DNA of 64,000 bases, from the NCBI GenBank assembly GCA_036227345.1, contig CP109468.1:6510001-6574000 (forward strand), read 5' to 3'. The translations under genes were made by a program, and so were the position numbers. Shown here in pieces: positions 42,748 through 63,488 of the stretch. Source of the stretch: Streptomyces sp. NBC_01463 (lineage in GTDB: Bacteria; Actinomycetota; Actinomycetes; Streptomycetales; Streptomycetaceae). The notes beneath the pieces were generated by a model. It saw only the letters and a list, made by a program, of their open reading frames with translations. It searched no databases and was not told the DNA's origin. Position 1 is the stretch's first letter, and each line of letters begins with the position of its first letter.

Positions 42748-42841
42748 GCGGGGTCCGGCACGCGCATCTGCGGCGTTGTCGTCAGTCGCCACTGCTCCGC
42801 AGTGCCTCCTGCGCCTTGCAGCTGCACGCACCGGACCCCGC
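42748..42841. repeat. Dispersed structured repeat, copy A
   Basis: An 11-bp perfect outer stem (42748-42758 with 42831-42841) encloses GGCGTTGTCGTCA (42772-42784), a 6-bp hairpin CACTGC-TCC-GCAGTG (42790-42804) and CGCCTTGCAGCTGCACGCAC (42812-42831). The same blocks recur at 63320-63455 with compensated stems. It lies 4 bp past the rhomboid stop, so it may also act as its terminator. The remaining part of the gap 42674-42747 shows nothing else. Confidence 0.75.
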
Positions 42842-42845
42842 TCCC

Positions 42846-43565
42846 TTATCCGGCCTGCTCCCGGCGCAAGGCTCCGGCCTCACGCCTGTAGCGCCCCCAC
42901 GCATAGAGAAACCCGGTGGCGAAGCCGACCACGTGGGCGAGGTAGGCCACGCCCGGCCCGCTGCCCGCGCCCTCGGCCGCCAGCCACTGCAGGACGAACC
43001 AGAAGACCAGCACGATCCAGGCGGGGAAGCGCAGCGGCAGGAACAGCAGGAACGGGAACAGGCTGGTGACCCGGGCCCGGGGGAAGAGGTAGAGGAAGGC
43101 GCCCAGCACCGCCGAGATCGCCCCCGACGCGCCGACGAGGGTCTGGTCGGACGTGGCGTGCGCGGCCGCGTAGGCGAGCAGGGCGAGATAGCCGCAGCCG
43201 AGGTAGAAGAAGGCGAACTCGGTGTGGCCCATCCGTTCCTCGGCCATCGCCCCGAACACGTACAGGAACAGCATGTTGCCGAGCAGATGCAGCCAGCTGC
43301 CGTGCACGAACAGGGCGGTGAGCGGGGTGAGCACGGCGTGCCCCGACCCGTCCCACAGCTCGCTCGGGATCACGCCCCAGCGTTCGAAGTACCCGGCCTG
43401 CGCGGCGAGCAGGGCGTCCGCGCTGCCGTAGACCGGGTTGAACCCGGACAGCGGGCTGATCACGAAGACCACGCAGCACAGGGCGATGAGGGCGTACGTC
43501 ACCGGCGGCCCGCCCGAGGTGGCCGCCCGCAGGATTCTGCCGGCCGCAGCCCGCCGATCGATCAT
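42846..43565 (-). CDS. Rhomboid-family intramembrane serine protease
   Basis: A 239-aa six-helix protease of the S54 family. Catalytic serine in VGASGAISAVLG and histidine in LAHVVGFATGF are both present, as is the HGSWLHLLGNMLFLYVFG block on helix 2. It cleaves membrane proteins within or near the bilayer; substrates are unknown. ATG 43565 was chosen over an in-frame TTG at 43583; neither has a strong ribosome-binding site. It is divergent from the zinc-ribbon gene. Confidence 0.93.
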   Translation of the reverse strand: MIDRRAAAGRILRAATSGGPPVTYALIALCCVVFVISPLSGFNPVYGSADALLAAQAGYFERWGVIPSELWDGSGHAVLTPLTALFVHGSWLHLLGNMLFLYVFGAMAEERMGHTEFAFFYLGCGYLALLAYAAAHATSDQTLVGASGAISAVLGAFLYLFPRARVTSLFPFLLFLPLRFPAWIVLVFWFVLQWLAAEGAGSGPGVAYLAHVVGFATGFLYAWGRYRREAGALRREQAG

Positions 43566-43725
43566 GAACAGAGCATGACGCAAGCGGAGGGAACGGGACA
43601 GAGCGCCTCGCCGTGCCGGTGGGATGCGCCGAGGCCGTAGGGTTGCAGCAGGACATCCGCAGTTCGACGGCGCACCGCGAGATCCTTGTCCGGCGGCTCA
43701 CGGCTCGAGATAAGAGGACACAACG

Positions 43726-43968
43726 ATGACGACGGTTCCCCAGCCGACCGACGGGACCCGCTGGCGCTGCACGCTCTGCGGAAACCTGACGCGGTTCGAC
43801 GTGACGCGCTCGTCCAAGGTCGTCGAGTACGTGCACCTCGACCTGGCCGGTGAGTCCAGTGTCGAAGAACGCGAGGTCGTCAGTGAGACCATCGAGTCGG
43901 TGCGGTGTCGTTGGTGCAACGCGGTGGACCAGATCGAACTAGTCGACAGGCCGGGTGCCGACTCCTGA
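43726..43968 (+). CDS. Small zinc-ribbon protein
   Basis: An 80-aa protein with two CxxC knuckles (RCTLCGN near residue 15 and RCRWCNA near residue 61), which would bind one zinc ion. The middle is acidic and probably beta-rich (VVEYVHLDLAG). ATG 43726 follows AAGAGGA. It lies 32 bp before the NYN-domain gene on the same strand, suggesting a common transcript and perhaps a shared RNA-related role. Confidence 0.85.
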   Translation: MTTVPQPTDGTRWRCTLCGNLTRFDVTRSSKVVEYVHLDLAGESSVEEREVVSETIESVRCRWCNAVDQIELVDRPGADS

Positions 43969-44000
43969 CGGGGCCGTGCGGACATAAAACGAGGTGACGG

Positions 44001-45365
44001 ATGGTGGAGCAGCCCGCTGGCGGCGCCGCGTCGGCCGATGCGGCCGACGATGCCGTGGAGGCGCTCGACCGCCCGCTGCCCGAAGGCGTGCGGCGGCGGG
44101 TCGTCGCGCTGGTCTCGGACGCGTTCGGCGGGCTCACGGTCTCCGAACTCCCGGCTCAGCTCAGACAGTACGCCCGCTTCACCCCGACCCGGCGGGCGAA
44201 GTTCGCCGGCAACGCGATGGCGGCCGCGCTGGAGGGCGACGCGCCCTTCCGCCGGCGCATCGGTGAACGGCTGACGGAGTCCCAGCCGGAACTGGCCGCC
44301 GCGCTCGTGGCGGGCTCCCCGCCCGCCGCCGCCGACCCCGTCGACGTGGCCGCCGCGGCCTATGTGCTGCGCCCCGCGGGCTGGGTCAAGCTGGTCGCCG
44401 CCGCGGGCGAGGAGGCCGAACGGGTCCACGCCGAGCGCGCCGACGAGGAGAGCCGGCTCGAACTGGAGCGGCTGCGCGAGGAACTCGCCCAGGCGCGCGC
44501 CCAGACCAAGAGCGACACCGAACGGCTCCGCGGTGAGCTGGAGGCGGCCCGCAAGGAGGCCGATTCGCTCCAGCGCAAACTGCGCAGCGCGGCCAACGAG
44601 GTGAAGCGCGGCGAGGCGGCGCTGCGCCGCGGCAAGGCCGAGAGCGACGCCGTGCGGGCCGAGGCGGCCGCCCAGGTGTCCGCGGCGGAGAGCGAGACGC
44701 GGCGGCTGCGGGCGAGGCTCGGTGAGGCGGAGGCGTCCGTCGAGGCGGGCCGCAGGGCCGCCAGGGAGGGGCGCTCGGTCGAGGACATGCGGCTGCGGCT
44801 GCTGCTCGACACGGTCATCGAGGCGGCCGGCGGACTGCGGCGCGAACTGGCGCTGCCGCCCTCGTCGATGCGGCCCGCGGACAGCGTGGACGCGGTCGAG
44901 CCGGGGCGGATGTCGCCCAAGGACATTGCCGCGAGGGCTCTTTCGGAGACGGACCCGGCACTGCTCGACCAACTGCTCGCGCTGCCGCAGGCCCATCTGA
45001 TCGTGGACGGCTACAACGTGACCAAGACCGGCTATCCGCAGATGCCGCTGGAGAAGCAGCGGCTGCGGCTGCTGGGCGGCCTCTCGGTGCTCGCGGCCCA
45101 GACGGGCGCCGAGATGACCTGTGTCTTCGACGGGGCCGAACTGGCGGCGCCGGTGCTGCTCGCACCGCCGCGCGGCGTGCGGGTGCTGTTCAGCAAGCCG
45201 GGTGTCACGGCCGACGAGGTCATCAGGCAACTGGCCCGTGCCGAACCGTCCGGAAGGCCCGTCGTGGTGGTCTCCACCGACCGCGAGGTGGCCGACGGAG
45301 TGGCGAAGGCGGGGGCCAGGCCCGTTGCGTCCGTCTTGCTCCTGAAGCGGCTTTCGCGCGTCTAG
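44001..45365 (+). CDS. NYN (PIN-like, YacP-type) domain protein with coiled coil
   Basis: A 454-aa protein. The N-terminal helical region (1 to about 130, Ala-rich) is followed by a long charged coiled coil (about 135-255) and a C-terminal NYN/YacP RNase-like domain (about 330-454). The domain has the acidic active-site blocks LIVDGYNVTK, CVFDGAEL and VVVSTDREVADGV. YacP (Rae1) in Bacillus cleaves mRNA on ribosomes; here RNA cleavage is an inference from the fold. ATG 44001 follows GAGGTGACGG. Confidence 0.88.
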   Translation: MVEQPAGGAASADAADDAVEALDRPLPEGVRRRVVALVSDAFGGLTVSELPAQLRQYARFTPTRRAKFAGNAMAAALEGDAPFRRRIGERLTESQPELAAALVAGSPPAAADPVDVAAAAYVLRPAGWVKLVAAAGEEAERVHAERADEESRLELERLREELAQARAQTKSDTERLRGELEAARKEADSLQRKLRSAANEVKRGEAALRRGKAESDAVRAEAAAQVSAAESETRRLRARLGEAEASVEAGRRAAREGRSVEDMRLRLLLDTVIEAAGGLRRELALPPSSMRPADSVDAVEPGRMSPKDIAARALSETDPALLDQLLALPQAHLIVDGYNVTKTGYPQMPLEKQRLRLLGGLSVLAAQTGAEMTCVFDGAELAAPVLLAPPRGVRVLFSKPGVTADEVIRQLARAEPSGRPVVVVSTDREVADGVAKAGARPVASVLLLKRLSRV

Positions 45366-45449
45366 TCCGGCTTGTCATGACGTTCCGGACATCACGGAAC
45401 GGACCGTCAAGTCACCGCTACACCCTGTGTGATGTGAGTAAAGAAGTAC

Positions 45450-45467
45450 CTCGTGTGACGAGATTTT
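45450..45467 (+). terminator. Short hairpin with U tract after the NYN gene
   Basis: A 5-bp stem CTCGT-GTG-ACGAG (45450-45462) followed by ATTTTT. The stem is short for this GC-rich genome, but the U tract is unusual here and suits a terminator. Confidence 0.45.
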
Positions 45468-45479
45468 TCCCGCGAGGAT

Positions 45480-45509
45480 TTGAACTGATCACAAGACGGT
45501 CACTAAGGT
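45480..45509 (+). promoter_or_regulatory. Vegetative-type promoter of the riboswitch-controlled NlpC/P60 gene
   Basis: TTGAAC (45480-45485) and TAAGGT (45504-45509) with an 18-bp spacer fit a HrdB-type promoter. The transcript would begin near 45516, just before the ydaO-like aptamer. Confidence 0.6.
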
Positions 45510-45515
45510 CGGGCC

Positions 45516-45632
45516 TCGAACCTTCGAACGGTTGATCACCCATCCGGGGTGGCAGCGAAGGAACCGCCGAGTCCGTGACGTGCACGGAGCCGGGGACTCA
45601 CCTCCCCCACTTCCCGGTAGGCGGCTCGAGGA
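45516..45632 (+). ncRNA. ydaO-type c-di-AMP riboswitch
   Basis: The leader contains TTGATCACCCATCCGGGGTG, CCGCCGAGTCCG, GAGCCGGGGAC and, near the 3' end, CCCGGTAGGCGGC. These are the blocks I associate with ydaO/yuaA aptamers that precede cell-wall hydrolase genes (rpfA, NlpC/P60) in Streptomyces. The boundaries are approximate. By analogy, c-di-AMP would lower expression of the downstream endopeptidase. Confidence 0.75.
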
Positions 45633-45649
45633 AGAAGGAGCTCGCCTTC

Positions 45650-46675
45650 GTGGCGTCCCACCGTCGTCCCAAGCAGCCGAGCCGCACCCGCGTGACCGTG
45701 CTCACCGCAACTGCCGCCGCAGCCGTGGCCCTGACCTCCCAGGCCGCCCACGCCGACCCCAAGCCGACCAAGAGCGAGGTCAAGGCGAAGGTCGACAAGC
45801 TCTACCACGAGGCGGAGGAGGCCACCGAGCAGTACAGCGGGGCCAAGGAGAAGCAGGAGAAGCTCGAGAAGCAGATCGACGCGCTGCAGGACAAGGTCGC
45901 CCGCGGTCAGCAGGATCTCAACTCGCTCCGCTCCGGCCTCGGTTCCCTCGCCGCCGCGCAGTACCGCTCCGGAGGCATCGACCCCTCCGTGCAGCTCTTC
46001 CTCGCGTCGGACCCGGACAGCTTCCTCGACCAGGCCTCCGCGCTCGACCAGTTGACCGCCAAGCAGGCCGAGTCGCTGTCGAAGATCCAGGAGAAGCAGC
46101 GGTCCCTCGCGCAGGAGCGCAAGGAGGCGCAGGACAAGCTGAGCGACCTCGCGGATGTCCGCAAGACGCTCGGCGAGAAGAAGAAGAAGCAGCAGGCCAA
46201 GCTCGCCGAGGCGCAGAAGGTGCTCAACACCCTCACCGCCGCCGAGCGCGCCAAGATGCGCCAGGACGACCTCCGCGCCAGCCGCGCCGCCGGTGACCGG
46301 GTCGACCTCGGCAACGAGGCCCCCGCGTCCGGTCTGGGCGGGGCCGCCCTCCAGGCCGCCAGCACCCGGGTCGGCATGCCGTACGTCTCCGGCGCCACGG
46401 GCCCCGGCTCCTTCGACTGCTCGGGTCTGACCCAGTGGGCCTACGCCCAGGCCGGTGCCCAGATCACCCGCACCACGTACACCCAGATCAACCAGGGCAC
46501 CCAGATCGCCCGCAGCCAGCTCAAGCCGGGCGACCTGGTCTTCTTCAGCAACACCTCGCACGTGGCCCTCTACGCGGGCAACAACACCGTGCTGCACGCG
46601 CCCAAGCCGGGTGCCTCGGTGCGCTACGAGTCGATGAACACGGTCGGCAGCTACCAGACCGCGGTGCGCATCTGA
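45650..46675 (+). CDS. NlpC/P60 peptidoglycan endopeptidase
   Basis: A 341-aa secreted D,L-endopeptidase that cuts peptidoglycan stem peptides. The signal peptide ends near SQAAHA; a long coiled coil follows (about 40-205), then the NlpC/P60 domain with C257 in SFDCSGLTQWAY and histidines in SHVALYAG and LHAPKPG. The coiled coil resembles the RipA/CwlO autoinhibitory region. GTG 45650 follows AAGGAG. It is preceded by a promoter and a c-di-AMP-type riboswitch, linking wall hydrolysis to turgor control. Confidence 0.94.
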   Translation: MASHRRPKQPSRTRVTVLTATAAAAVALTSQAAHADPKPTKSEVKAKVDKLYHEAEEATEQYSGAKEKQEKLEKQIDALQDKVARGQQDLNSLRSGLGSLAAAQYRSGGIDPSVQLFLASDPDSFLDQASALDQLTAKQAESLSKIQEKQRSLAQERKEAQDKLSDLADVRKTLGEKKKKQQAKLAEAQKVLNTLTAAERAKMRQDDLRASRAAGDRVDLGNEAPASGLGGAALQAASTRVGMPYVSGATGPGSFDCSGLTQWAYAQAGAQITRTTYTQINQGTQIARSQLKPGDLVFFSNTSHVALYAGNNTVLHAPKPGASVRYESMNTVGSYQTAVRI

Positions 46676-46719
46676 TCACGCCCGAACGGGCGAATTCCCG
46701 CGCCCCGTACTGACGCCCC

Positions 46720-46752
46720 GCCCCGCCGGAGACCACAGGTCACCGGCGGGGC
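46720..46752 (+). terminator. Intrinsic terminator after the first NlpC/P60 gene
   Basis: A 10-bp stem (46720-46729 with 46743-46752), an A-A mismatch, then four more pairs (GACC-ACA-GGTC). It should stop transcription before the paralogue. Confidence 0.8.
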
Positions 46753-46916
46753 GCCGTCGTTTGCGCCCCCTGTCCGCCCGGCGCGGTCTTTGTCCGCTCC
46801 GTGATCGCCCGACTACTGTCTGCCTGCTGAGCAGCTCCCGTGCGTCGGTCCGCCCGCCCCGGGTGGCAGGGGCTGCGCACGTCTGCGTACAGCGGAAGGG
46901 AGTACGGCGTCCTGTG

Positions 46917-47948
46917 GTGTCCCATCGCCGTTCCACACAGCCCGGCGTCAGCCGGAGCGTCCGGGTCACTGTCCTGTCGGCCGCCGCCGCGACCGCCGCC
47001 GCGGCGCTCGGGGCGGCCACCGCGAACGCCGAGCCGCACGACACCCGGCAGGCCGCCGGGGCCCGGGTCGACCGCCTCTACGCCGAGGCCGAGCGGGCGA
47101 CCGAGCAGTACAACAAGGCCGGTGAGAACGTCGGCCGGCTGCGCGGCGAGGTGAGCCGGGCCCAGGACCGGGCCGCCCGGGGCCAGGAACGCATCAACGG
47201 GATGCGCGCGGAGCTGGGTTCGGCCGCCCGCGAGCAGTACCGGTCCGGCGGCATCGACCCCTCGCTCGCGCTGCTGCTCTCCTCCGACCCCGACGGCTAC
47301 CTCGACGCGGCCGCCGCCCTGGGCCGGGCCGACGAACACCGCGCCACCACGCTGGACCGGATCCGCAAGGCGCAGCGGGTGCTCGCCCAGACCCGTGCGG
47401 AGGCCGCCCGCGCGCTCGCCGGCCTGGAGCGCAACCGCGAGGCCGTCACCCGCCACAAGCGCACCGTCGAGCGCAAGCTCGTCCAGGCCAGGCAGGTGCT
47501 GAAGTCGCTGCCCGGCGCCGACCGGGAAGCCCTCGAACGGGCCTCGCGCACCGGCCGCGACGACGGGAGCGCAGGACCCGTGGCAGGTCTGCCCGCCGGC
47601 TCGTCCCGGGCGGCCGCCGCCGTCATGGCCGTCCAGCAGGCGCTGGGCCGGCCCTACGTCTGGGGCGCGAACGGACCCTCGGGGTTCGACTGCTCCGGCC
47701 TGATGCAGTGGGCGTACGCCCGGGCCGGGGTGAGTCTGCCGCGGACCTCGCAGGCCCAGCGGTACGCCGGTCACATGGTGCCGCTCTCCGAGGCCCGCCC
47801 CGGGGACCTCGTCGCCTACCGCGCGGACGCCAGCCACATCGGCATGTACGTCGGAAACGGCCAGGTCATCCACGCCCCGTACCCGGGCGCCCCGGTCCGC
47901 TACGACCCCGTCGGCATGATGCCCGTCTCCTCGGTCACCCGGGTCTGA
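46917..47948 (+). CDS. NlpC/P60 peptidoglycan endopeptidase, second paralogue
   Basis: A 343-aa secreted enzyme with the same plan as its upstream neighbour: signal peptide ending near ATANA, coiled coil (about 45-210) and NlpC/P60 domain with C259 in GFDCSGLMQWAY and histidine in SHIGMYVG. It is clearly a tandem duplicate. Its leader carries no ydaO-type aptamer, so it should be regulated differently. An adjacent GTG at 46914 is an equal alternative start; GGGAG lies 11-14 nt upstream. Confidence 0.92.
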   Translation: MSHRRSTQPGVSRSVRVTVLSAAAATAAAALGAATANAEPHDTRQAAGARVDRLYAEAERATEQYNKAGENVGRLRGEVSRAQDRAARGQERINGMRAELGSAAREQYRSGGIDPSLALLLSSDPDGYLDAAAALGRADEHRATTLDRIRKAQRVLAQTRAEAARALAGLERNREAVTRHKRTVERKLVQARQVLKSLPGADREALERASRTGRDDGSAGPVAGLPAGSSRAAAAVMAVQQALGRPYVWGANGPSGFDCSGLMQWAYARAGVSLPRTSQAQRYAGHMVPLSEARPGDLVAYRADASHIGMYVGNGQVIHAPYPGAPVRYDPVGMMPVSSVTRV

Positions 47949-47963
47949 CCGTACCCTCGTCAT

Positions 47964-49220
47964 GTGGCTGATCAGGGGCGTACCGCGGGGCGGGCGCGCG
48001 GTGGACGACGGCGCGCGGCGGGCGCGGTGCTCGCCGTGCTGCTGTGCGCGGCCGCCTGCACCGCCCCGGCCGCCGACGAGGTCCCCGACCCCGCCGCGCG
48101 TGACATCCGCGCCACGCTGGACCGCCGCGCGGCCGCCGTGCTGCACCACGACCCGGCGGCCTACGCCGCCGTCGTCGATCCGGACGCCACGGCCCTGCGG
48201 ACCGCCCAGCGCCGGGAGCTCGGCCACCTCGCGGACGTGCCGCTCGGCTCCTGGACGTACCGGCTGACCGGTCTCGCCGCGCACGGCGCCGACCGGGCCA
48301 CCGCCGACGTCCGGCTCGGCTACCGGATCAAGGGGTACGACAGCGCGCCGGTCTCCGTCGACCGGGTCGTCGACCTGGAGCGGGACCGGGCCGACGGCCG
48401 CTGGTACATCACCGCCGACCGGGCCGCCGACGGCGGCGGACGACAGCTCTGGCAGCAGGGCGACATCGACGTCGTGCGCGGCACGCACAGCCTGGTGCTC
48501 GGCGTCGGCCGCTCCCGGGCGGAGCTGGACGGGATCGCGGCCACCGCGGACCGGGCGGTGCCCGACGTCTCCGGGGCCTGGCCGGACCACTGGGCCGGGC
48601 GCGTGGTGGTGCTGGTGCCGGACACCGTGGCGGACATGGCGGAGCTGCTCGGCTCGCCCGCCGCGAACTACCGGGGCATAGCGGCCGTCACCACCGGGGA
48701 GACGGGCGGTTCGGGCAAGGCCCCCGCCGACCGGGTGATCGTCAACCCGGAGGCGTACGCGATGCTCGGCGCCTTCGGACAGCGCGTCGTCCTCACCCAC
48801 GAGACCACCCATGTGGCGACCCGCACCCGGACCTCCGCCGCCACCCCGGTCTGGCTCTCCGAGGGCTTCGCCGACTGGGCCGCCTACCGGACGCAGGGCC
48901 GCACCGCCGCCGAGGTCGCGCCCGAACTGGCCGACGCCGTCCGCGGCGGCGACGTACCCGCCGCCCTGCCCACGGACGAGGACTTCGGCTTCGCCGGCGA
49001 CGCGGACCGCCTCGCGAGGGCCTACGAGGGCGGCTGGCTGGCCTGCGAGCTCATCGCGGGCCACTGGGGCCAGGACAAGCTGCTGGCCTTCTACCGGGCC
49101 GTGGGGGCGCACTCCGGGCGGGACGGGGCGGTCGAGCAGGCCCTGCACGAGGTCCTGGGCACGACCCCGCAGGACTTCACGGCGCGCTGGCGGGAGTATC
49201 TGCGGAGCCGGCTCGGCTGA
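47964..49220 (+). CDS. HExxH metallopeptidase-like lipoprotein
   Basis: A 418-aa extracytoplasmic protein. A signal with a cysteine at CAAAC is followed by an NTF2/SnoaL-like region (about 45-165) and a gluzincin peptidase-MA-like domain. The zinc site is H279-E280-x-x-H283 in LTHETTHVAT, with the third ligand glutamate in WLSEGFADW. Substrates are unknown. GTG 47964 starts 15 bp after the second NlpC/P60 stop, so co-transcription is likely. The last 44 bp overlap the convergent GT87 gene. Confidence 0.87.
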   Translation: MADQGRTAGRARGGRRRAAGAVLAVLLCAAACTAPAADEVPDPAARDIRATLDRRAAAVLHHDPAAYAAVVDPDATALRTAQRRELGHLADVPLGSWTYRLTGLAAHGADRATADVRLGYRIKGYDSAPVSVDRVVDLERDRADGRWYITADRAADGGGRQLWQQGDIDVVRGTHSLVLGVGRSRAELDGIAATADRAVPDVSGAWPDHWAGRVVVLVPDTVADMAELLGSPAANYRGIAAVTTGETGGSGKAPADRVIVNPEAYAMLGAFGQRVVLTHETTHVATRTRTSAATPVWLSEGFADWAAYRTQGRTAAEVAPELADAVRGGDVPAALPTDEDFGFAGDADRLARAYEGGWLACELIAGHWGQDKLLAFYRAVGAHSGRDGAVEQALHEVLGTTPQDFTARWREYLRSRLG

Positions 49221-50466
49221 ACGGGGGCGCGACGGGCTCCGCGCCGGCCGCCGTGACCTCGTCGGACCGCGCACCGTCCCGGACCGGGCCGCGCACGGTG
49301 TCCCGCCACAGCCGCCCGCACGCGAGCAGTGTCGCCGCGACCAGCAGCCCGTTGCGCAGGAACATCAGGGTCACGCCCGTCGCGTCACTGGTCACCACGT
49401 GGACGAAGCCGAGCGGGAACTCCAGCTGCGTGACGCCCGTCGCGACCAGCACCAGGACGGCGGGCAGCGCCATCCGGCTCGCCCGGAAGACCAGGCAGAC
49501 CGCGGCCAGGCCGACCAGCCACAGCATGTACTGGGGGCTGATCACCCGGCTCGTGGTGGTGAACAGCAGCACCGCGGTGAAGGCCGCGTCCGCCGGCGTA
49601 CTCACCCCGAAGGTGCGCGCCCGCAGCCGCCACACCAGCAGCCAGCCGAACGCGACCACGCTCAGCCCGAGCGCGAGGGTGCTCACCAGCGGTACGTGCG
49701 GGCCCAGGAACTCCAGCGAGCCGTAGTGCAGCTCCACCCGGCCCTGCCAGCCGAACTGCCGCGCCACATGGAAGACCAGGGCCCCCAGCGACTCGACCTC
49801 GGTGCCCCGGTCCCGCTGGAAACCCAGGAACGCCAGCGCGCCGGGCGCCGCCGCGGCGCACAGCAGCAGCAGACCGGCCGCCACCCCGGCCGCCGTCGCC
49901 CACGCCAGCCGGGTCCGCCGCCCGCGCGCGGTACCGGCGAGCAGCAGCGCGGGCCACACCTTCAGCAGCGCGCCGAAGGCGGCCAGCGCCCCCATCACCC
50001 GCGGATGCCGGACCCCGGCCAGCAGCGCCGCCACGGCCACGGCCGTCACCATCACGTCGTACCGGGCGTACGCGGTCGTCCCCAGCAGCGGCACCCCCGC
50101 CACCCACACCCAGGCCCCGGCCGTCCTGCGGCCGGCGCCCCGGCCCGCGTGCAGCAGCAGGCCCAGCACCAGCGCGTCGCACAGGAACGCGAGGACGAAG
50201 AAGGCCGACGCGTAGTCCAGGAAGGGCAGCAGGGCGGGGGAGAGGATGGCGAGCGCCGCGACCGGCGGGTACTGCCAGGTGACGTCGGACTGCGGGTAGC
50301 TGCCCGACCTCAGCACGTCGTACCAGCCGTGGTAGATCACCGACACGTCGCTCGTCACGTCCGGGCCGGGCAGCGTGATCACCTTCACGACGCAGAGCAG
50401 GAGCACGGACCTGGTCAGCGCCCACACCGCGAAGGCACTCGTCCGTGTGCCGCTCGAACCCGTCAT
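49177..50466 (-). CDS. GT87-type polyprenol-phosphate-dependent mannosyltransferase
   Basis: A 429-aa integral membrane glycosyltransferase of the GT-C superfamily (GT87), with about ten to eleven helices. The first external loop DVTSDVSVIYHGWYDVLRSG contains the acidic residues expected of the catalytic motif, and TWQYPPVAA is a typical block. Relatives extend phosphatidylinositol mannosides or lipoglycans with polyprenyl-phosphate mannose. ATG 50466 was chosen because the hydrophobic profile begins there; the frame continues to 51798 as a shadow of the GT4 gene. It is divergent from the GT4 gene, which suggests a shared glycolipid pathway. Confidence 0.87.
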   Translation of the reverse strand: MTGSSGTRTSAFAVWALTRSVLLLCVVKVITLPGPDVTSDVSVIYHGWYDVLRSGSYPQSDVTWQYPPVAALAILSPALLPFLDYASAFFVLAFLCDALVLGLLLHAGRGAGRRTAGAWVWVAGVPLLGTTAYARYDVMVTAVAVAALLAGVRHPRVMGALAAFGALLKVWPALLLAGTARGRRTRLAWATAAGVAAGLLLLCAAAAPGALAFLGFQRDRGTEVESLGALVFHVARQFGWQGRVELHYGSLEFLGPHVPLVSTLALGLSVVAFGWLLVWRLRARTFGVSTPADAAFTAVLLFTTTSRVISPQYMLWLVGLAAVCLVFRASRMALPAVLVLVATGVTQLEFPLGFVHVVTSDATGVTLMFLRNGLLVAATLLACGRLWRDTVRGPVRDGARSDEVTAAGAEPVAPPFSRAGSADTPASAP

Positions 50467-50607
50467 GACCCGCCCTTGCCCGTCCGCCAGTGGTACGACA
50501 GGCCATGATGCCCCGCCCGTCTGTGCGGGAGCCACAGAACCGGGTCCGGGACTCCGCGTGGCGTCGCGGGGAATCCCGCACCCGGCCGCCCGGTACTGTC
50601 GGCGGCG

Positions 50608-51750: not shown

Positions 51751-51754
51751 ACGT

Positions 51755-51794
51755 ACGGAGGGGCCCGCGCCACCCTCGGCGCGGGCCCCTCCGT
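51755..51794. terminator. Bidirectional intrinsic terminator
   Basis: A 17-bp perfect stem (51755-51771 with 51778-51794) and a 6-nt loop, between the GT4 gene and the convergent fadD-type gene. Confidence 0.92.
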
Positions 51795-51805
51795 GCACGA
51801 GTGGA

Positions 51806-53692: not shown

Positions 53693-53881
53693 CGACTGGA
53701 CTGCCCGGACGTTACCCACCGGTACTCGGTTCCGGATAGGGGGTTCAGGCCAGATGTCTTATGCGTCACACATATCGGTGGTCCTTGCGCGCAGAGTAGT
53801 GCACCCCGGCCGGCACTCGGAAGTAACCGCAGGTCCGGCGGCCCCTACCCAGGTGGACGCCGGAGTTCTAGGGTGATCGTC

Positions 53882-54688: not shown

Positions 54689-54802
54689 CCCCCCGCCCCT
54701 GCCCGGGCCGGACCCTGCGACCCGGCGCAGCGCGCACGCGATAGCCTTCTGGCGGCAGGCCTCTGCCGACCGACCGGTACACCGCACTGGAGGGCCACAG
54801 CG

Positions 54803-55252: not shown

Positions 55253-55257
55253 CCGGG

Positions 55258-56478: not shown

Positions 56479-56561
56479 ACGGCGTACCACCGTTCGGGTA
56501 ACGTCGGTAGAAGGCGTCCCGGACGCCGGGCCGCCGGTCACCCACGTCGCAGGAGTCCGCC

Positions 56562-57020
56562 ATGAGCGAAGCCACCGATCGTCCCGCCGACGACGACGCG
56601 TGGGCGCAGGCCTGCGCCGAGGACCTCGCCGCCGAGAAGGCCCGCCGCCGCGCCGAGTACGGCCCGCCGCCCGGCTCCGCCGCCGAGGAACTGCGCAAGC
56701 TGGTCGACGCCGTGGCCGACAAGCTGGGTTCCCTCCAGTCGCCGCTGTTCGGGGTGGCGGCCCAGGGAGCCGTGCAGCAGGTCATCAAGCAGGCGAAGTC
56801 CGCCGTCGAGCCCGTCATCGAACGCAATCCGGACGTTTTCGAGCACATCGCCGCGGCCGGCAGTGAACTGCTCGCCGCCTACCGCTCCGCCGTCGAGGGT
56901 CAGGAACGTCGCTGGACCCAGGGCGCGGGGGACCCCGCAGGCACGGAAACGAAGGCGGAGGGCCCCACCGACCCCCGTGACGAGGGGCCCGGCGCCGGCG
57001 AACACATCGACCTGGACTGA
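56562..57020 (+). CDS. DUF5304-type protein of unknown function
   Basis: A 152-aa, mostly helical, charged protein starting MSEATDRPADDDAWAQACAEDLAAEKARR. A central amphipathic helix (SAAEELRKLVDAVADKL) and an acidic disordered tail ending EHIDLD are seen, with no membrane segment. It matches a Streptomyces family that I know as DUF5304; the role is unknown. ATG 56562 follows CAGGAG. It lies 83 bp after the ArsA-like gene. Confidence 0.8.
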   Translation: MSEATDRPADDDAWAQACAEDLAAEKARRRAEYGPPPGSAAEELRKLVDAVADKLGSLQSPLFGVAAQGAVQQVIKQAKSAVEPVIERNPDVFEHIAAAGSELLAAYRSAVEGQERRWTQGAGDPAGTETKAEGPTDPRDEGPGAGEHIDLD

Positions 57021-57093
57021 CCGGCGACGACAGGGCGGGGTCCGGCCTCGGGTACGGTTGCCTCAGCGGGGCTCGACCGAAACTGAGGGATTC

Positions 57094-58035
57094 ATGGGAC
57101 TCACCATCGGCGTCGATATCGGCGGCACGAAGATCGCAGCTGGAGTGGTCGACGAAGAGGGCCACATCCTCTCGACCTTCAAGGTGCCGACCCCGCCGAC
57201 GGCCGAAGGCATCGTGGACGCGATCGCGGCGGCGGTGTCCGGCGCGAGCGAGGGGCATCCCGTCGAGGCGGTCGGCATCGGCGCAGCCGGATACGTCGAC
57301 GACAAGCGGGCCACGGTGCTGTTCGCACCGAACATCAACTGGCGGCACGAGCCGCTGAAGGACAAGGTCGAGCAGCGCGTCGGCCTCCCCGTGGTCGTGG
57401 AGAACGACGCCAACGCGGCGGCCTGGGGCGAGTACCGCTTCGGCGCCGGTCAGGGCCATGACGACGTCATCTGCATCACGCTCGGCACGGGCCTCGGCGG
57501 CGGCATCATCATCGGCAACAAGCTGCGCCGCGGACGCTTCGGCGTGGCCGCCGAGTTCGGCCACATCCGGGTCGTCCCGGACGGGCTGCTCTGCGGCTGC
57601 GGCAGCCAGGGCTGCTGGGAGCAGTACGCCTCCGGCCGGGCGCTCGTGCGGTACGCGAAGCAGCGCGCCAACGCCACCCCCGAGAACGCCACGATCCTGC
57701 TGGCGCTCGGTGACGGCACGGTCGAGGGCATCGAGGGCAAGCACATCAGCGAGGCCGCCCGGCAGGGCTGCCCGGTGGCGGTCGACTCCTTCCGTGAGCT
57801 GGCCCGCTGGGCCGGCGCCGGACTGGCCGACCTCGCCTCGCTCTTCGACCCGTCCGCCTTCATCGTCGGCGGCGGCGTGTCGGACGAGGGCGAACTGGTC
57901 CTCGACCCGATCCGCAAGTCGTTCCGGCGCTGGCTGATCGGCGGCGAGTGGCGCCCGCACGCCCAGGTGCTCGCGGCCCAACTGGGCGGCAAGGCCGGTC
58001 TGGTGGGCGCGGCGGACCTGGCCCGGCAGGGCTGA
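57094..58035 (+). CDS. glkA: Glucokinase, ROK family
   Basis: A 313-aa ATP-dependent glucokinase that phosphorylates intracellular glucose. The ATP site GVDIGGTKIAAG, the glucose-binding and catalytic stretch VVENDANAAAWGEYRFGAG, the ROK block LGTGLGGGIIIGNKL and the zinc-binding CGCGSQGCWEQYASGRALV are all intact. In S. coelicolor this enzyme also mediates carbon catabolite repression, which is knowledge from that species. ATG 57094; the frame to 56863 is a shadow. It is closed by a hairpin. Confidence 0.96.
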   Translation: MGLTIGVDIGGTKIAAGVVDEEGHILSTFKVPTPPTAEGIVDAIAAAVSGASEGHPVEAVGIGAAGYVDDKRATVLFAPNINWRHEPLKDKVEQRVGLPVVVENDANAAAWGEYRFGAGQGHDDVICITLGTGLGGGIIIGNKLRRGRFGVAAEFGHIRVVPDGLLCGCGSQGCWEQYASGRALVRYAKQRANATPENATILLALGDGTVEGIEGKHISEAARQGCPVAVDSFRELARWAGAGLADLASLFDPSAFIVGGGVSDEGELVLDPIRKSFRRWLIGGEWRPHAQVLAAQLGGKAGLVGAADLARQG

Positions 58036-58057
58036 CCGACCCGGCACCACGGACATG

Positions 58058-58101
58058 ACGGACGCCCGTCGCGCCCCTCTCGGGGAGCGGCGGGCGTCCG
58101 T
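58058..58101 (+). terminator. Intrinsic terminator of glkA
   Basis: An 11-bp perfect outer stem (58058-58068 with 58091-58101) with an inner CCCC-GGGG pairing. It lies 23 bp after glkA and just before the next start. Confidence 0.8.
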
Positions 58102-58116
58102 CGTATCGTGATCCGC

Positions 58117-58875
58117 ATGGCCATGATGTCGCTGCCAGACTCCCGTACCGAGCAGGACGGCTCGGCCGTCGTCAGAGTGCTCAGCTACAACATCCGCTCG
58201 ATGCGCGACGACTTCCCGGCGCTGGTCCGCGTCATCCGCGCCTGCGCACCCGACCTGGTCCTCATCCAGGAGGCGCCGCGCTTCTTCCGCTGGCGCAAGC
58301 GCGCCGCCCGGCTGGCCGCCGCCAGTGATCTGGTGATCCTCGGCGGCGGCGCCACCGCGGCCGGCCCGCTGCTGCTCTGCTCGCTGCGCGCCACGGTGGA
58401 GCGCACCGAGGACATCCTGCTGCCGCTCACCCCGGGGCTGCACCGCAGGGGCTTCGCCACCGCGGTGGTCCGGATCGCGGGCACCCGGATCGGGGTGCTG
58501 AGCTGCCATCTGAGCCTGCAGCGTCAGGAGCGCCTCGCCCAGGCGGAGCGGCTGCTGGAGACGGTGGACGCGATGGACGTGGAGCACGTCGTCGTCGCCG
58601 GTGACCTCAACGACGTACCGAGCGGGCGCGCCTTCCGGCTGCTCGCCGGGCGGCTCCAGGACTGCTGGGAGGTACGTCCCCGGGGCGGCGAGCACACCTT
58701 TCCGCCGCACGAACCGCAGCGGCGGATCGACGCGGTCTTCGCGACCGGTGGCATCGAGGTGCTCGGCTGCGGGGTCCCGGCGGGACTGCCCGGGGTGTGG
58801 CCGCCCGACCTGCTGGCCGCGACCGACCACCTGCCGGTGCTGGCCGCGCTGCGGGTGCCCGCGGCCCGGCCGTAG
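58117..58875 (+). CDS. Endonuclease/exonuclease/phosphatase-superfamily protein
   Basis: A 252-aa DNase I-like metal-dependent phosphodiesterase. Motifs are VLSYNIRSM, LVLIQEAPRFF, LSCHLSLQ, VVAGDLNDVPSG, RRIDAVFAT and ATDHLPVLAAL, covering the metal and catalytic residues. It lacks a signal peptide, so it acts in the cytoplasm. DNA, nucleotides or lipids could be the substrate. ATG 58117 was chosen; a GTG at 58108 is possible. No Shine-Dalgarno site is visible. Confidence 0.87.
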   Translation: MAMMSLPDSRTEQDGSAVVRVLSYNIRSMRDDFPALVRVIRACAPDLVLIQEAPRFFRWRKRAARLAAASDLVILGGGATAAGPLLLCSLRATVERTEDILLPLTPGLHRRGFATAVVRIAGTRIGVLSCHLSLQRQERLAQAERLLETVDAMDVEHVVVAGDLNDVPSGRAFRLLAGRLQDCWEVRPRGGEHTFPPHEPQRRIDAVFATGGIEVLGCGVPAGLPGVWPPDLLAATDHLPVLAALRVPAARP

Positions 58876-58884
58876 CGTCCCGGC

Positions 58885-59562
58885 TCAGACCACCGCGCCG
58901 CGGCCGGGGTCGTCGCCGTCCTCGTCGTCGTGTTCCATCCGGGCCACCAGCGTCACGAAACCGCCCAGGAAGCCGCCGACGCAGACCGTCGTCAGCCACC
59001 ACGTCATCTCCCACTGGAGCAGCACCGCGAGCAGCAGCAGCACCGGACCGCCGACCACCGCGAGCCAGGCGAACTTCGCCGTGACGTCGGCCTCCGGCAA
59101 CGGCGGCGGCTCCGGCGGCACGAAGTGCCCCTCGCCGCTGTCGTCATCGTCGTCGATGTCGCCCGCGGCGGGCTCGGCCGGTTCGTAGTCGCGCGGGCCG
59201 CCGACGCCCGGCGCGAAGACCACCGAACTGCCGAGCGGCTTCTCCGGCGGCTTGGGCCGGCTCTTGCCGAGGCCCTTGTCCGGGTCCGGGGCGACGGTGT
59301 CCTCCTCCGGGAGCGCGAGATCCTCGATCGACCGGAAGGGGCGGGCCCCCGGCGGGTCCGGCGGCTCCTCCCCGTACCCGGCGACGATCGCCTGCCAGAC
59401 GGCGTCCTCGTCGACCTGGCGTTCTCCGTCCGCGCCCGAGGGGCCGGCCGCCGCCTCGGGGGCCGGCGCACCGCCCTCCTCGTCGGGAACGGCCGCTCCC
59501 CCGGCGGGGAGGGGTTCGCGCTCCTCGTCGCTGCCTGCGCGCTCCGCGTCGTGCTCAGCCAC
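58885..59562 (-). CDS. Conserved membrane protein of unknown function
   Basis: A 225-aa protein. The first 150 residues are acidic and Pro/Gly-rich, probably disordered and cytoplasmic. Two membrane helices follow (about 163-184 and 190-207), then an acidic tail MEHDDEDGDDPGRG. No family is recognised with confidence. GTG 59562 has GGGGAG 8 nt upstream. It overlaps the end of the alpha/beta-hydrolase gene by 8 bp, so they are translationally coupled. Confidence 0.82.
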   Translation of the reverse strand: MAEHDAERAGSDEEREPLPAGGAAVPDEEGGAPAPEAAAGPSGADGERQVDEDAVWQAIVAGYGEEPPDPPGARPFRSIEDLALPEEDTVAPDPDKGLGKSRPKPPEKPLGSSVVFAPGVGGPRDYEPAEPAAGDIDDDDDSGEGHFVPPEPPPLPEADVTAKFAWLAVVGGPVLLLLAVLLQWEMTWWLTTVCVGGFLGGFVTLVARMEHDDEDGDDPGRGAVV

Positions 59563-60334
59563 CGGACGTGCTCCCCTTCTTTCCGACGCTCGGAGCGAGG
59601 CGGCCGATGAACGAGTGGCTCTCGTCGAAGATCCGCTCCGCATCGTGGTCCAACGTCGCGACGTGGTAGCTCTGTTCCAGCAGGATCTCCTCGACGTCCG
59701 TCGAGGACACCCGGCTCAGGATCCGGGCGGTGTCGGCGGGCGGCACCACATGGTCCTGCGGGCTGTGCAGCAGCAGGACCGGCTGGGTCACCTGGGGCAG
59801 CTCGGCGTCGACCAGCCGGAAGAACTTCCGCACCGAGTGCGCCGCGTGCAGAGGCACCCGGTCGTAGCCCACCTCGTGGGACCCCGCCAGCGCGATGTCG
59901 CTCGTCAGCCCCTTCGTCGTCCGCACCAGGTGCCGGGCGACCGGCAGCGCGTACGCCGACAGGCCGTGCACCTTGTTGGCCGGGTTGACCAGCACCAGAC
60001 CCCGGACCCCGTCACCGTGCTTCGCGGCGAGCCGCAGCGCCAGCGCGCCGCCCATGGAGAGGCCGAAGACGAAGACCTGCTCGCACCGCTCCAGCAGCTC
60101 CCGCAGCGCCCGGTCCACCTCCGCGTACCAGTCCTGCCAGCCGGTCACCTGCATGTCCTCCCAGCGGGTGCCGTGCCCGGGCAGCAGCGGCAGCGAGACC
60201 GTGAGTCCGCGCTCCGCCAGATAGTCGGCCCAGGGGCGCAGCGACTGCGGGGAACCGGTGAATCCGTGACAGAGGAGGACGCCGACCTCTCCGCCCTCGT
60301 GGCGGAACGGCTCGGCTCCAGGAAGGACCGGCAC
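59555..60334 (-). CDS. Alpha/beta hydrolase (carboxylesterase / monoacylglycerol-lipase type)
   Basis: A 259-aa esterase. Nucleophile Ser in VFGLSMGGALAL, acid Asp in LLLHSPQDHVVPP and catalytic His in SYHVATLDHDAE complete the triad, and the oxyanion block LLCHGFTGSPQSL is clear. It resembles Est30-type carboxylesterases. GTG 60334 with AGGAG 6-7 nt upstream is preferred over the frame start at 60457. It is divergent from plsC; both enzymes handle acyl esters. Confidence 0.9.
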   Translation of the reverse strand: MPVLPGAEPFRHEGGEVGVLLCHGFTGSPQSLRPWADYLAERGLTVSLPLLPGHGTRWEDMQVTGWQDWYAEVDRALRELLERCEQVFVFGLSMGGALALRLAAKHGDGVRGLVLVNPANKVHGLSAYALPVARHLVRTTKGLTSDIALAGSHEVGYDRVPLHAAHSVRKFFRLVDAELPQVTQPVLLLHSPQDHVVPPADTARILSRVSSTDVEEILLEQSYHVATLDHDAERIFDESHSFIGRLAPSVGKKGSTSGG

Positions 60335-60497
60335 CGGGGTCTCCTGTTCGTGAGGCTCGAAGGGGAGCGGAAGGGGGGAGTGCAGAAGGATTACTTCACC
60401 GTACGCGACCGGGCCGACACCGACCAGGGCCGTCACGGGGAGCACGGGCGACCGCACGGGTTAAGGTCTGTCGGACAGCACACAGGAGGCACCCGAG

Positions 60498-61268
60498 TTG
60501 ATCTACGGCGCTATGAAGTTCTCCATCGGCGGGTCTCTGAAGCTCGCCTTCAGGCCGTGGGTGGAGGGCCTGGAGAACATTCCCGCGCAGGGACCCGCGA
60601 TCCTCGCGAGCAATCATCTGTCGTTCTCCGACTCCTTCTTCCTGCCGGCCGTCCTGGACCGCAAGGTCACCTTCATCGCCAAGGCCGAGTACTTCACCGC
60701 GCCCGGGGTCAAGGGCAAGCTCACGGCCGCCTTCTTCAAGGGCGTGGGACAGCTCCCGGTGGACCGCTCCGGTGCCCGCGGGGCCGGTGAGGCGGCGATC
60801 AAGGCCGGTATCGAGGTCATCGAGAGCGGTGGGCTCTTCGGCATCTACCCGGAGGGCACCCGGTCGCCCGACGGCCGCCTGTACCGCGGCAAGCCCGGCG
60901 GTCTCGCCCGGGTGGCGCTCGCCACCGGCGCCCCGGTCATCCCCGTCGCGATGATCGACACGGAGAAGATCCAGCCGCCCGGGCAGGTGATGCCCAAGCT
61001 GATGCGCCCGGGGATCAGGATCGGCAAGCCGCTCGACTTCAGCCGCTACCACGGCATGGAGGGCGACCGCTTCATCCTGCGCTCGGTCACCGACGAGGTG
61101 ATGTACGAGATCATGAAGCTGTCCGGGCAGGAGTACGTCGACATCTACGCGACGGCCGCCAAGCGGCAGCTCGCGGACGAGGCGAAGCGGCAGGCGGAGG
61201 CCGCGAAGCAGGCCGCGTCCGGCGGCCGGGACGAGCAGCGGGGGACGGACGGGGACCGCGGCGCCTGA
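60498..61268 (+). CDS. plsC: 1-acyl-sn-glycerol-3-phosphate acyltransferase
   Basis: A 256-aa acyltransferase that makes phosphatidic acid at the membrane. The catalytic NHxxxxD motif is NHLSFSD, and the acceptor motif is YPEGTRSPDGRLYRG. The tail after residue 215 is a charged helix (AKRQLADEAKRQAEAAKQAA). The TTG start at 60498 has AGGAGG 8 nt upstream, which decides it over ATG 60513. It lies 35 bp before macS, so these may be co-transcribed. Confidence 0.93.
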   Translation: MIYGAMKFSIGGSLKLAFRPWVEGLENIPAQGPAILASNHLSFSDSFFLPAVLDRKVTFIAKAEYFTAPGVKGKLTAAFFKGVGQLPVDRSGARGAGEAAIKAGIEVIESGGLFGIYPEGTRSPDGRLYRGKPGGLARVALATGAPVIPVAMIDTEKIQPPGQVMPKLMRPGIRIGKPLDFSRYHGMEGDRFILRSVTDEVMYEIMKLSGQEYVDIYATAAKRQLADEAKRQAEAAKQAASGGRDEQRGTDGDRGA

Positions 61269-61303
61269 GCGCGCGCGGAAGTCCGGGGCGGGGGGAGAAG
61301 AAG

Positions 61304-62530
61304 ATGGCCAGACGGGTGCGGGTCGTGCGGATGTCGGTCGAGCAGCCGCTGTGGCGTGCCCTGACCGCGTACCGCGTCCTGACGATGCTCTACGCGATCC
61401 TGCTCGCGGTCTTCGGCCGCGAGAAGTACGAGCGGCCGTGGGTGGCCGTCGTCTTCCTGACGGTCATGGCCGTCTGGACGCTCGCCACCCTGCCGAAGGT
61501 GGCGGGCGCGGTCGCCTGCACCAAGCGCTTCCTGGGCGCCGACCTCACGCTCGCGCTGACCGGCATCCTCATCACGCCGCTCGCCGACTTCCAGGCCCAG
61601 CACATGGACGGCCCCACCCTGCCGTCCATCTGGACCGCGGGCTCCGTCCTCGCCTTCGCGATCAAGGGCGGCTGGCGGTGGGCGGCCTTCGCCTCCACCT
61701 TCGTCGCCGTCGCCAACCTGATCGAGCGCGCCGAGCCCAGCCGCGACACCCTGCACAACGTCCTGCTGGTCTGGGTCGCCTCCATCGCCATCGGGTACGT
61801 CGTCGAGGTCGCCCGCGCCAGTGAGCGCACCCTCGCCCGCGCCCTGGAGATCGAGGCGGCCACCCGTGAGCGCGAACGGCTTGCCCGGGACATCCACGAC
61901 AGCGTGCTCCAGGTCCTCGCGATGGTGCAGCGCCGCGGCACGGCGCTCGGCGGCGAGGCGGCCGAGCTGGGCCGGATGGCCGGGGAACAGGAGGTCGCCC
62001 TGCGCACCCTGGTCTCCAGCGGCCTGGTACCGCCCACCCGGCTCTCCGAGGACGCGGCCGAGGGCGCCGTCGTACGGACCGTCGAGACGGACGACGACGA
62101 GGCCGACGTGCCGGCCGAGACCGATCTGCGCGCCCTGCTCGCCCCGCACGCCGGCTCCCGGGTCAGTTTCGCGGAGCCCGGTGCCCCGGTGCTGCTCGCG
62201 CCCGGGGCGGCCGGCGAACTGGCGGCCGCCGTCAGCGCGGCACTGGACAATGTCCGGGTGCACGCGGGGGAGAGCGCCCAGGCGTGGATCCTGGTCGAGG
62301 ACTGGCCCGACGAGGTGATCGTCACGGTCCGGGACGACGGACCGGGCATCCCGGACGGGCGGCTCGCCCAGGCCGAGGGCGAGGGCCGCCTCGGCGTCGC
62401 CCTCTCCATCCGCGGGCGGCTGCGCGATCTGGGCGGCACGGCAGAACTGATCTCGGTGCCCGGCCAGGGCACCGAGGTCGAACTGAAGGTTCCGAAGGTT
62501 TCACGGGGGAAGGCGGGTTCAGTCCGATGA
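61304..62530 (+). CDS. macS: Two-component sensor kinase MacS
   Basis: A 408-aa NarL-family kinase. Five to six membrane helices make up the first half (about 20-170), then the HisKA_3 helix with H198 in ARDIHDSVLQVLAMVQ and an ATPase domain with VRDDGPGIPDGRL and GRLGVALSIRGRLRDLGG. Position directly before pfkA and the sequence character match MacS of S. coelicolor, part of a pair reported to control morphogenetic membrane-protein genes and actinorhodin. ATG 61304 follows GGGGGGAG. Its stop overlaps the macR start. Confidence 0.9.
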   Translation: MARRVRVVRMSVEQPLWRALTAYRVLTMLYAILLAVFGREKYERPWVAVVFLTVMAVWTLATLPKVAGAVACTKRFLGADLTLALTGILITPLADFQAQHMDGPTLPSIWTAGSVLAFAIKGGWRWAAFASTFVAVANLIERAEPSRDTLHNVLLVWVASIAIGYVVEVARASERTLARALEIEAATRERERLARDIHDSVLQVLAMVQRRGTALGGEAAELGRMAGEQEVALRTLVSSGLVPPTRLSEDAAEGAVVRTVETDDDEADVPAETDLRALLAPHAGSRVSFAEPGAPVLLAPGAAGELAAAVSAALDNVRVHAGESAQAWILVEDWPDEVIVTVRDDGPGIPDGRLAQAEGEGRLGVALSIRGRLRDLGGTAELISVPGQGTEVELKVPKVSRGKAGSVR

Positions 62531-63222
62531 GCGCAGCACACGAGGAGAACGCCGGGCAGCAGCGGCCGATCAGGGTGATGGTCGTCGACGACCACCCGAT
62601 GTGGCGCGACGCCGTCGCCCGCGACCTCGCCGAGTCCGGCTTCGACGTGGTGGCGACGGCGGGCGACGGCCCGCAGGCCGTCCGCCGGGCCGGGGCCGTC
62701 ACCCCCGACGTCCTGGTCCTCGACCTCAACCTGCCCGGGATGCCGGGCGTCCAGGTCTGCAAGGAACTCGTCGGATCGCAGCCGGGACTGCGGGTCCTGG
62801 TGCTCTCCGCGAGCGGCGAGCACGCCGACGTCCTGGAGGCGGTCAAGTCCGGTGCCACCGGCTATCTGCTGAAGTCGGCGAGCACCCGGGAGCTGACCGA
62901 CGCGGTCCGCTCCACCGCCGTCGGCGACCCGGTCTTCACCCCCGGCCTCGCCGGGCTCGTCCTCGGCGAGTACCGCAGACTGGCCTCCGAGCCCGCACCC
63001 GTCGCCTCGGACGAGCCGAAGGCCCCGCAGCTCACCGACCGGGAGACCGAGGTGCTGCGGCTGGTGGCCAAGGGACTCTCGTACAAGCAGATCGCCGAGC
63101 GCCTCGTCATCTCGCACCGCACCGTGCAGAACCACGTCCAGAACACCCTGGGCAAGCTCCAGTTGCACAACCGGGTGGAGCTCGTGCGGTACGCCATCGA
63201 GCGCGGACTCGACGACGTCTGA
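62527..63222 (+). CDS. macR: NarL/LuxR-family response regulator MacR
   Basis: A 231-aa regulator. The receiver has VVDDHP, phospho-acceptor D66 in VLVLDLNLPG and the lysine in YLLKSAS. The LuxR-type helix-turn-helix is LTDRETEVLRLVAKGLSYKQIAERL with recognition part HRTVQNHVQN. The ATG overlaps the macS stop (ATGA). It is paralogous in plan to the regulator at 19548 but clearly a distinct subgroup. Confidence 0.92.
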   Translation: MSAAHEENAGQQRPIRVMVVDDHPMWRDAVARDLAESGFDVVATAGDGPQAVRRAGAVTPDVLVLDLNLPGMPGVQVCKELVGSQPGLRVLVLSASGEHADVLEAVKSGATGYLLKSASTRELTDAVRSTAVGDPVFTPGLAGLVLGEYRRLASEPAPVASDEPKAPQLTDRETEVLRLVAKGLSYKQIAERLVISHRTVQNHVQNTLGKLQLHNRVELVRYAIERGLDDV

Positions 63223-63290
63223 GATCAACACCCGGACATTGCACGGGAATTGACCGTCCGACCCATCCCTCTGTGACCTGGATCACCCTT

Positions 63291-63488
63291 AGACTGACCG
63301 GCACATGAGGGGTGGCGTCGCGGGGCTGGGCACGCACTCCCCCAAGCTCTCGGCTTCACTCGAGCAGGGGGGACCCCCTCCGGCGTTGTCGTCAATCACC
63401 ATGGCTCTGCCATGGCTCACTCCTCCGCCTTGCAGCTGCACGCACCCAGCCCCGCTCCTTCTTCCACCCCTCATGTGCCGGGCAGTCT
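63291..63488. repeat. TIR-bounded intergenic element holding structured repeat copy B
   Basis: 25-bp terminal inverted repeats (63291-63315 and 63464-63488) match at 24 of 25 positions. Inside, 63320-63330 pairs perfectly with 63445-63455 and encloses the same core as copy A: GGCGTTGTCGTCA, a hairpin CCATGGC-TCT-GCCATGG (63399-63415) and CGCCTTGCAGCTGCACGCAC. An extra hairpin block with CTCCCCC and GGGGGG arms (about 63337-63375) is absent from copy A. It fills the 310-bp gap before pfkA and has no coding capacity. Confidence 0.75.

Follow-up and report, generated by a model that had tools for sequence, protein, structure and literature searches.

What are the two similarly folded intergenic sites that lie about 20 kb apart in Streptomyces sp. 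NBC_01463? Both occur in a 64,000-nucleotide stretch of contig CP109468.1 (positions 6,510,001 to 6,574,000), hereafter the window, and all coordinates below count from its first letter. A first-pass annotation, made from the letters alone, had described the sites, copies A and B, as a dispersed element under selection for structure, either an RNA or a folded single-stranded transposition substrate. The reading that now appears probable is that A and B are miniature inverted-repeat transposable elements (MITEs) of the IS5 type, the core of which, a hairpin of approximately 100 nt, folds as a single strand and acts as RNA.

The shared architecture of the two sites was confirmed. The ordered blocks GGCGTTGTCGTCA and CGCCTTGCAGCTGCACGCAC are present in both copies, the 11-bp outer stems and the inner hairpins each pair with their own arm, and the predicted folds of A and B are more stable than 200 out of 200 dinucleotide shuffles each (z -4.34 and -4.08, respectively). 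The short block CTTGCAGCTGCACGCA occurs twice exactly in the window and three times with up to three mismatches, a level reached by 7 of 100 shuffles, so that this block alone is weak evidence and it is the wider family that decides. The spans originally assigned to the copies (A, 42748-42841; B, 63320-63455) correspond to a real core, while the whole elements are longer (Table 1), with outer inverted repeats flanking each core on arms of 25 nt in A and 32 nt in B. An additional hairpin module (~63337-63379) is carried by B and is lacking in A. A broad covariance model (R2), built from 34 sequences on the complementary strand, matches A at 42745-42843 (minus strand, 106 bits, E 2.7e-21) and B at 63361-63457 (minus strand, 58.9 bits).

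The description of the element as dispersed extends well beyond these two copies. A model derived from 38 copies (R1) yields 16 matches at E ≤ 1 in the source genome, where three further copies, all with inserts, were found by motif only. With R2 at E ≤ 1e-4, matches are found in 56 of the 197 class-sampled genomes (source included), representing 18 of 90 genera; the matches per genome reach 20, the number of candidates scored, and the per-genome counts are thus lower bounds. The exact motif is present in 24 of 81 genus genomes, the source genome included, as 68 unique copies. Among the matches listed, the named records with both the motif and block 1 belong to Streptomyces and Actinacidiphila, while matches in Rubrivivax, Rhizobium, Actinocrinis and one actinomycete metagenome-assembled genome are missing block 1 and look like chance. 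The plasmid matches (61 records) are all from Streptomyces. Phage or viral carriage was rejected: there was no phage match, four viral-contig matches were attributed to chance, and the pattern gave one further match.

Covariation among the copies supports the view that selection acts on a folded strand. Alignment A1 comprises 38 sequences, leaving out copies with inserts, shortened copies, copies misfitting the block 1 pattern and 13 locus matches skipped by name. Two-sided changes occupy 72 cells in this alignment, compared to a shuffled mean of 20.8, and none of 500 shuffles reaches 72. When divergent members are added, 103 two-sided cells are observed (21.1 when shuffled) across 21 of the 33 pairs, and among 53 distinct rows there are 353 compensatory cells in 25 of the 33 pairs, against 112.2 when shuffled and at most 102 with the partner slid. 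A phylogeny-aware null, in which the observed substitutions are re-placed at random on the tree (the authors' own procedure, not R-scape), was applied to two sets of sequences. With 97 copies tested against 60 null alignments, three column pairs have E < 0.05 and all three are structural; with 52 broader sequences tested against 300 null alignments, seven of the eight column pairs at this level are structural and 94.4% of the cells are paired, compared to a null maximum of 77.9%. The latter set omits B, the insert of which distorts the alignment, and the 97 cores were chosen by similar patterns, with identical cores counted once, named genomes duplicating genomes under G handles, and a few doubtful ends (e.g. 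L269). The covariance model search, proposed as a check when only two copies were at hand, recovered many copies, in which covariation exceeds the shuffled, slid and phylogeny-aware controls. Internal-loop columns were also seen to co-vary outside the structure, at 42/74 in the broad alignment A3 (E 0.03) and at 44/65 in A1 (E 0.17), possibly through a non-canonical contact.

The strand on which the fold was first drawn is not the one that keeps its pairing best. The complement is more stable in 97 of 97 copies, with a mean difference of 16.2 kcal/mol, although these copies are related and hence do not represent 97 independent tests; for random 103-nt pieces of the window the strand difference is 2.0 (standard deviation 7.1). 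Three sites that are C-A or A-C on the first-described strand form G-U pairs on its complement, where a G-U or standard pair is found in 97, 97 and 96 of the 97 copies (290 of 291 cells). Changes on the tree from a standard pair lead to A-C 44 times and to G-U 14 times (p 1e-4), and the terminal repeats show the same strand lean (63 versus 18 cells), with one ancestral state possibly counted repeatedly. In the folding strand, a long stem that contains conserved G-U pairs and an AA bulge is followed by an internal loop, with GGAGGAG opposite GACGACAAC, and by a small capping hairpin. The conserved parts GCAAGGCGGAGGAG and CGACAACGC flank this short capping hairpin and look like a putative binding site. 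A coding role of the core, with a short frame from GTG or ATG on the folding strand, was dropped by eye since the frame lengths shift between subfamilies.

Covariation could also arise if the two arms were kept alike by template switching within the palindrome, without selection on the fold. Long palindromes undergo arm-to-arm correction, and the terminal repeats likewise co-vary from copy to copy. Such correction would tend to erase asymmetries, however, and both the asymmetric AA bulge and a T-C mismatch at columns 23/84 (unpaired in 96 of 97) persist, while the three C-A/A-C sites remain standard or G-U on the complement. Template switching further predicts no strand preference, where one strand is favoured in every copy, making this explanation very improbable.

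The terminal repeats, target sites and IS5-like ends place A and B, as judged from sequence, in the class of putative non-autonomous IS5-type MITEs. Relatives L400 and L401 contain a continuous CACTCTAG with an intact CTAG and no element where A sits, L405 appears the same by eye, and the remaining relatives differ by short gaps. The core is absent from the B site in all 18 relatives for which both flanks were found; by eye, eleven of these have an uninterrupted TTAGCG, three have TAGCG after another base, one has TTACCG and three have no such site, and the source genome site is broken at CTTAG. Genome G049 contains two copies which are 99.0% identical and have different flanks, indicating recent movement. 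When ends are defined by arm pairing alone, CTAG is found at both ends in 41, at one end in 17 and at neither in 38 of the 97 distinct cores, one having no ends, where the background chance of CTAG within a 9-mer is 0.4%. An end finder with a TA bonus beside the ends, which tilts the count towards CTAG, gives CTAG at both ends in 47 of 94, at one in 18, YTNAR at both in four and neither in 25, with three more lacking ends. Computed element lengths are mostly 154-190 bp among copies without a left insert. Both A and B are short (<~500 bp) and, by eye, non-coding, and they display the other hallmarks of MITEs, namely terminal inverted repeats, a target duplication with an empty site and many dispersed copies.

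Elements of the IS5 group insert at CTAG or CTNAG with a 2-3 bp duplication, a pattern that holds for part of the copies. Loci of Streptomyces IS5-family insertion sequences (PF13340), examined without a target requirement and separately with a YT(N)AG target required, have terminal repeats of the same style beside CTAG or CTNAG, many then continuing with TGTC- or TGTT-like sequence. For A and B the link to IS5 consists of repeat style and target only, while the core-bearing locus L364 of the source genome has 17 nt (GGGCGTGTTTCGAAAGT) in common with an insertion sequence end at L203 in another genome. Unlike these insertion sequences, the A/B-type elements contain no transposase, and their movement would be effected in trans by a given IS5-family transposase. 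Transposases of the DDE_Tnp_4 family (PF13359) were rejected as the source, with no matching ends of this type on both sides among 30 loci, and R1 run on 45 transposase loci gave one weak match (E 0.027) and no other at E ≤ 0.1.

In the source genome the same core is found inside seemingly unrelated terminal repeats, for example in L358, L359, L360, L362, L364, L365 and L366, in each of which the two ends match one another. Copy A carries the common end type in a variant form that is altered on both arms. In many copies and genomes (window 63337-63379, L002, L006, L007, L008, L057 and L060), a hairpin module of the form CTCCCCC...GGGG(G)ACCCC has inserted at one or other of two positions in the core, and it resembles a second repeat, mobile or modular, that targets hairpins. 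Very short palindromes with the same ends and the core missing, apparently deletion derivatives, occur in L116, L110, L184 and L151. The unlike end types of L192, GTCCGGCGGATC and GATCCAAACGAC, may mark a recombinant between end types, and L050 contains two cores (1427-1529 and 1590-1692), adjacent and on the same strand with different stems, representing adjacent or nested elements.

Gene context, determined with a home-made gene finder, was scored for 92 of 151 copies (30 skipped, 29 too far). Convergent genes surround 40 of these and divergent genes 13, while the co-directional copies have the folding strand in the sense orientation in 22 cases and antisense in 17, so that the transcribed strand is not clearly preferred. 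More convergent than divergent placements might be shown by a terminator, and a leader, terminator or riboswitch RNA that regulates the adjacent genes in cis could in principle be envisaged. The flanking genes vary from copy to copy, however, orientation to them is not clearly biased, and the empty sites in relatives indicate that the genes manage without the element, rendering this role scarcely credible.

A pronounced bias was observed relative to the replication fork. With dnaA taken as the origin, 63 of the 78 listed copies (p 4e-8) have the first-described strand as plus when they lie on the right arm and as minus when they lie on the left. The source genome contributes 18 of 19 and the other genomes 45 of 59 (p 7e-5). 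These 78, from genomes with a located dnaA, comprise 72 copies of which 60 agree, a count reached by none of 20000 within-genome shuffles, and six more of which three agree and three do not; genomes with a rotated or unclear layout (G055, G007 and G012) and contigs without an origin are left out of the tally. The favoured orientation places the better-folding strand on the leading-strand template. One reading of this bias is that copies are lost more often when they lie the other way round, which puts the stronger hairpin on the lagging-strand template, and another is replication-coupled insertion; for IS200/IS605 elements, orientation to replication is known.

The fork-following orientation, together with the lack of a clear bias towards flanking genes, would be accounted for if the core were selected as single-stranded DNA at replication forks, recognised in transposition or replication, with the fold mattering in DNA. 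G-T pairs are tolerated in DNA too, and single-stranded DNA substrates typically show a bulge and internal loops within an imperfect hairpin. Against this, the favoured orientation would put the wobble-pair strand on the leading-strand template and not on the exposed lagging-strand template, the terminal repeats with TA/TNA duplication point to a double-strand DDE transposase, and the fork bias is missing in two genomes (5/9 in G049 and 3/7 in G040). Selection as single-stranded DNA, the main rival to the RNA reading, is considered unlikely. Of the alternatives raised at the outset, the folded strand stands, while the terminal repeats, the 2-3 bp target duplication and the empty sites make a purely single-stranded transposition substrate less likely.

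The favoured interpretation remains that the folded core may be an RNA serving the element itself. An IS5-family transposase made elsewhere in the cell would recognise the matched terminal repeats, and the element would insert at CTAG or CTNAG, duplicating TA or TNA. The core would act as RNA made by transcription across the element and, more tentatively, the conserved internal loop could let a host RNA-binding protein or nuclease bind or process this RNA hairpin. Binding or processing of this kind would make insertions near gene ends tolerable, allowing the element to persist. A number of observations weigh against this interpretation. A clear orientation bias to the flanking genes would be expected if the RNA served these genes and is not seen, and the strong fork orientation speaks for DNA and not for transcription. 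Of the 44 A-C changes, 19 come from two columns and, without these columns, the count is 25 versus 14 (p 0.11); on this recheck the RNA reading was lowered slightly and single-stranded DNA raised slightly. The broad alignment A3, having been fitted to the model, leans towards the structure, the null was run on trees built from these same short sequences, and there is little variation in the innermost GGCG/CGCC stem, bar one position which breaks its pair in 24 of 53 rows. Furthermore, 38 of the 96 copies with ends have CTAG at neither, and none of the insertion sequences examined matches A or B exactly at its ends.

No named family had been recognised for the element, and this assessment holds. 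The only Rfam match over the window at cut-off is SAM-IV, away from the core, and no family reaches cut-off over the core itself. At E ≤ 1, six core-bearing loci gave five microRNA matches, all far below cut-off; that of mir-1397 over the L366 core (23.9 bits against a cut-off of 70, E 0.51) was taken as chance. No description of the family was found in the literature, in a search that mostly did not extend to subscription papers, and neither 'Streptomyces' nor 'Actinobacteri' appears in the main text of a 2024 review of prokaryotic MITEs (PMC10969869).

In form the family resembles known MITEs such as ERIC and Correia. ERIC elements are imperfect palindromes with internal insertions, while Correia elements show a TA duplication. 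In the review, ERIC are short intergenic repeats classed as MITEs, with copy numbers that vary greatly between genomes, and at gene ends they can affect transcripts (PMC10969869). The Correia repeat enclosed elements of Neisseria are described there as ~200-bp MITEs which carry promoters and an IHF site and the transcripts of which are cut by RNase III (PMC10969869). The present elements are like ERIC in being short intergenic MITEs of variable copy number, and like Correia in their ~200-bp size class and TA duplication, in both cases in form. They differ from ERIC in their bacterial group and in having unrelated terminal repeats around one conserved core, and from Correia in that the core with its conserved loops spans 18 of 90 genera. 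An imperfect hairpin and a strand preference are shared with REP and IS200/IS605-type hairpins; these are not known to have terminal inverted repeats plus target duplication, whereas the A/B family has both and does not conform to the IS200/IS605 type.

The positions of the elements and their parts are given in Table 1. The genes on either side of copy A, both on the minus strand, are a rhomboid-family gene and a short gene. It was considered whether A had inserted precisely at the rhomboid stop codon, an idea that was dropped since the relatives are not clearly in frame there. In L424, from another genus, a different palindromic element with CTAG ends occupies the gap between the genes that flank A. 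Copy B lies between genes for a LuxR-type response regulator and a phosphofructokinase, both on the plus strand, and is upstream of the latter. Upstream of the phosphofructokinase gene lies the CRP-like palindrome GTGACCTGGATCAC (63273-63286), which many of the displayed relatives keep intact or nearly so, and the insertion point of B is immediately downstream of this palindrome. The SAM-IV riboswitch (40662-40779, 108.8 bits) is located upstream of a class-V aminotransferase gene in the window.

Table 1. Features of copies A and B in the window.
Feature	Position	Strand	Basis or remark
Copy A, whole element, 156 bp	42719..42874	- (best-folding strand)	Inverted repeats, arm matching, empty sites in relatives
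Target CTAG left of A	42716..42719	.	Right copy CCGG; probably a decayed TA duplication
Left terminal inverted repeat of A	42719..42743	+	92% complementary to 42850-42874
Right terminal inverted repeat of A	42850..42874	+	Inverted repeat
Outer core stem of A, left arm	42748..42758	+	Sequence, fold
Outer core stem of A, right arm	42831..42841	+	Sequence, fold
Conserved block 1 in A	42772..42784	+	Complement, in folding strand, bears CGACAACGCC
Inner hairpin of A, CACTGC/GCAGTG	42790..42804	+	Sequence, fold
Conserved block 2 in A	42812..42831	+	Complement, in folding strand, bears GCAAGGCG
Copy B, whole element, 196 bp	63292..63487	- (best-folding strand)	Inverted repeats, uninterrupted site in relatives
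TTA left of B, probable 3-bp target duplication	63289..63291	.	Right copy TCA, 63488-63490
Left terminal inverted repeat of B	63292..63315	+	Inverted repeat
Right terminal inverted repeat of B	63464..63487	+	Inverted repeat
Outer core stem of B, left arm	63320..63330	+	Sequence, fold
Outer core stem of B, right arm	63445..63455	+	Sequence, fold
Secondary hairpin module (CTCCCCC...GGGGGGACCCCC) within B core	63337..63379	+	Same module type, same core position, in other copies
Conserved block 1 in B	63382..63394	+	Sequence
Inner hairpin of B, CATGGC/GCCATG	63400..63414	+	Sequence, fold
Conserved block 2 in B	63426..63445	+	Sequence

Bacterial MITEs are usually regarded as passive deletion products of insertion sequences. 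The retention of a fold with conserved loops across 18 genera, while the stems and ends changed, implies that the fold has a function. It is conceivable, if still speculative, that what is conserved is the folded core and not the transposon ends. The core would then be a mobile RNA (or single-strand) parasite found across this class of actinobacteria, which many successive transposases have carried as it acquired or evolved matched ends, its insertion or survival being tied to fork direction. The covariance model makes the family countable and allows tests of the transcribed strand, of the GGAGGAG/GACGACAAC loop partner and of the alignment with the fork. Streptomyces genomes that serve antibiotic discovery contain these elements, which can sit in promoters and near gene ends.

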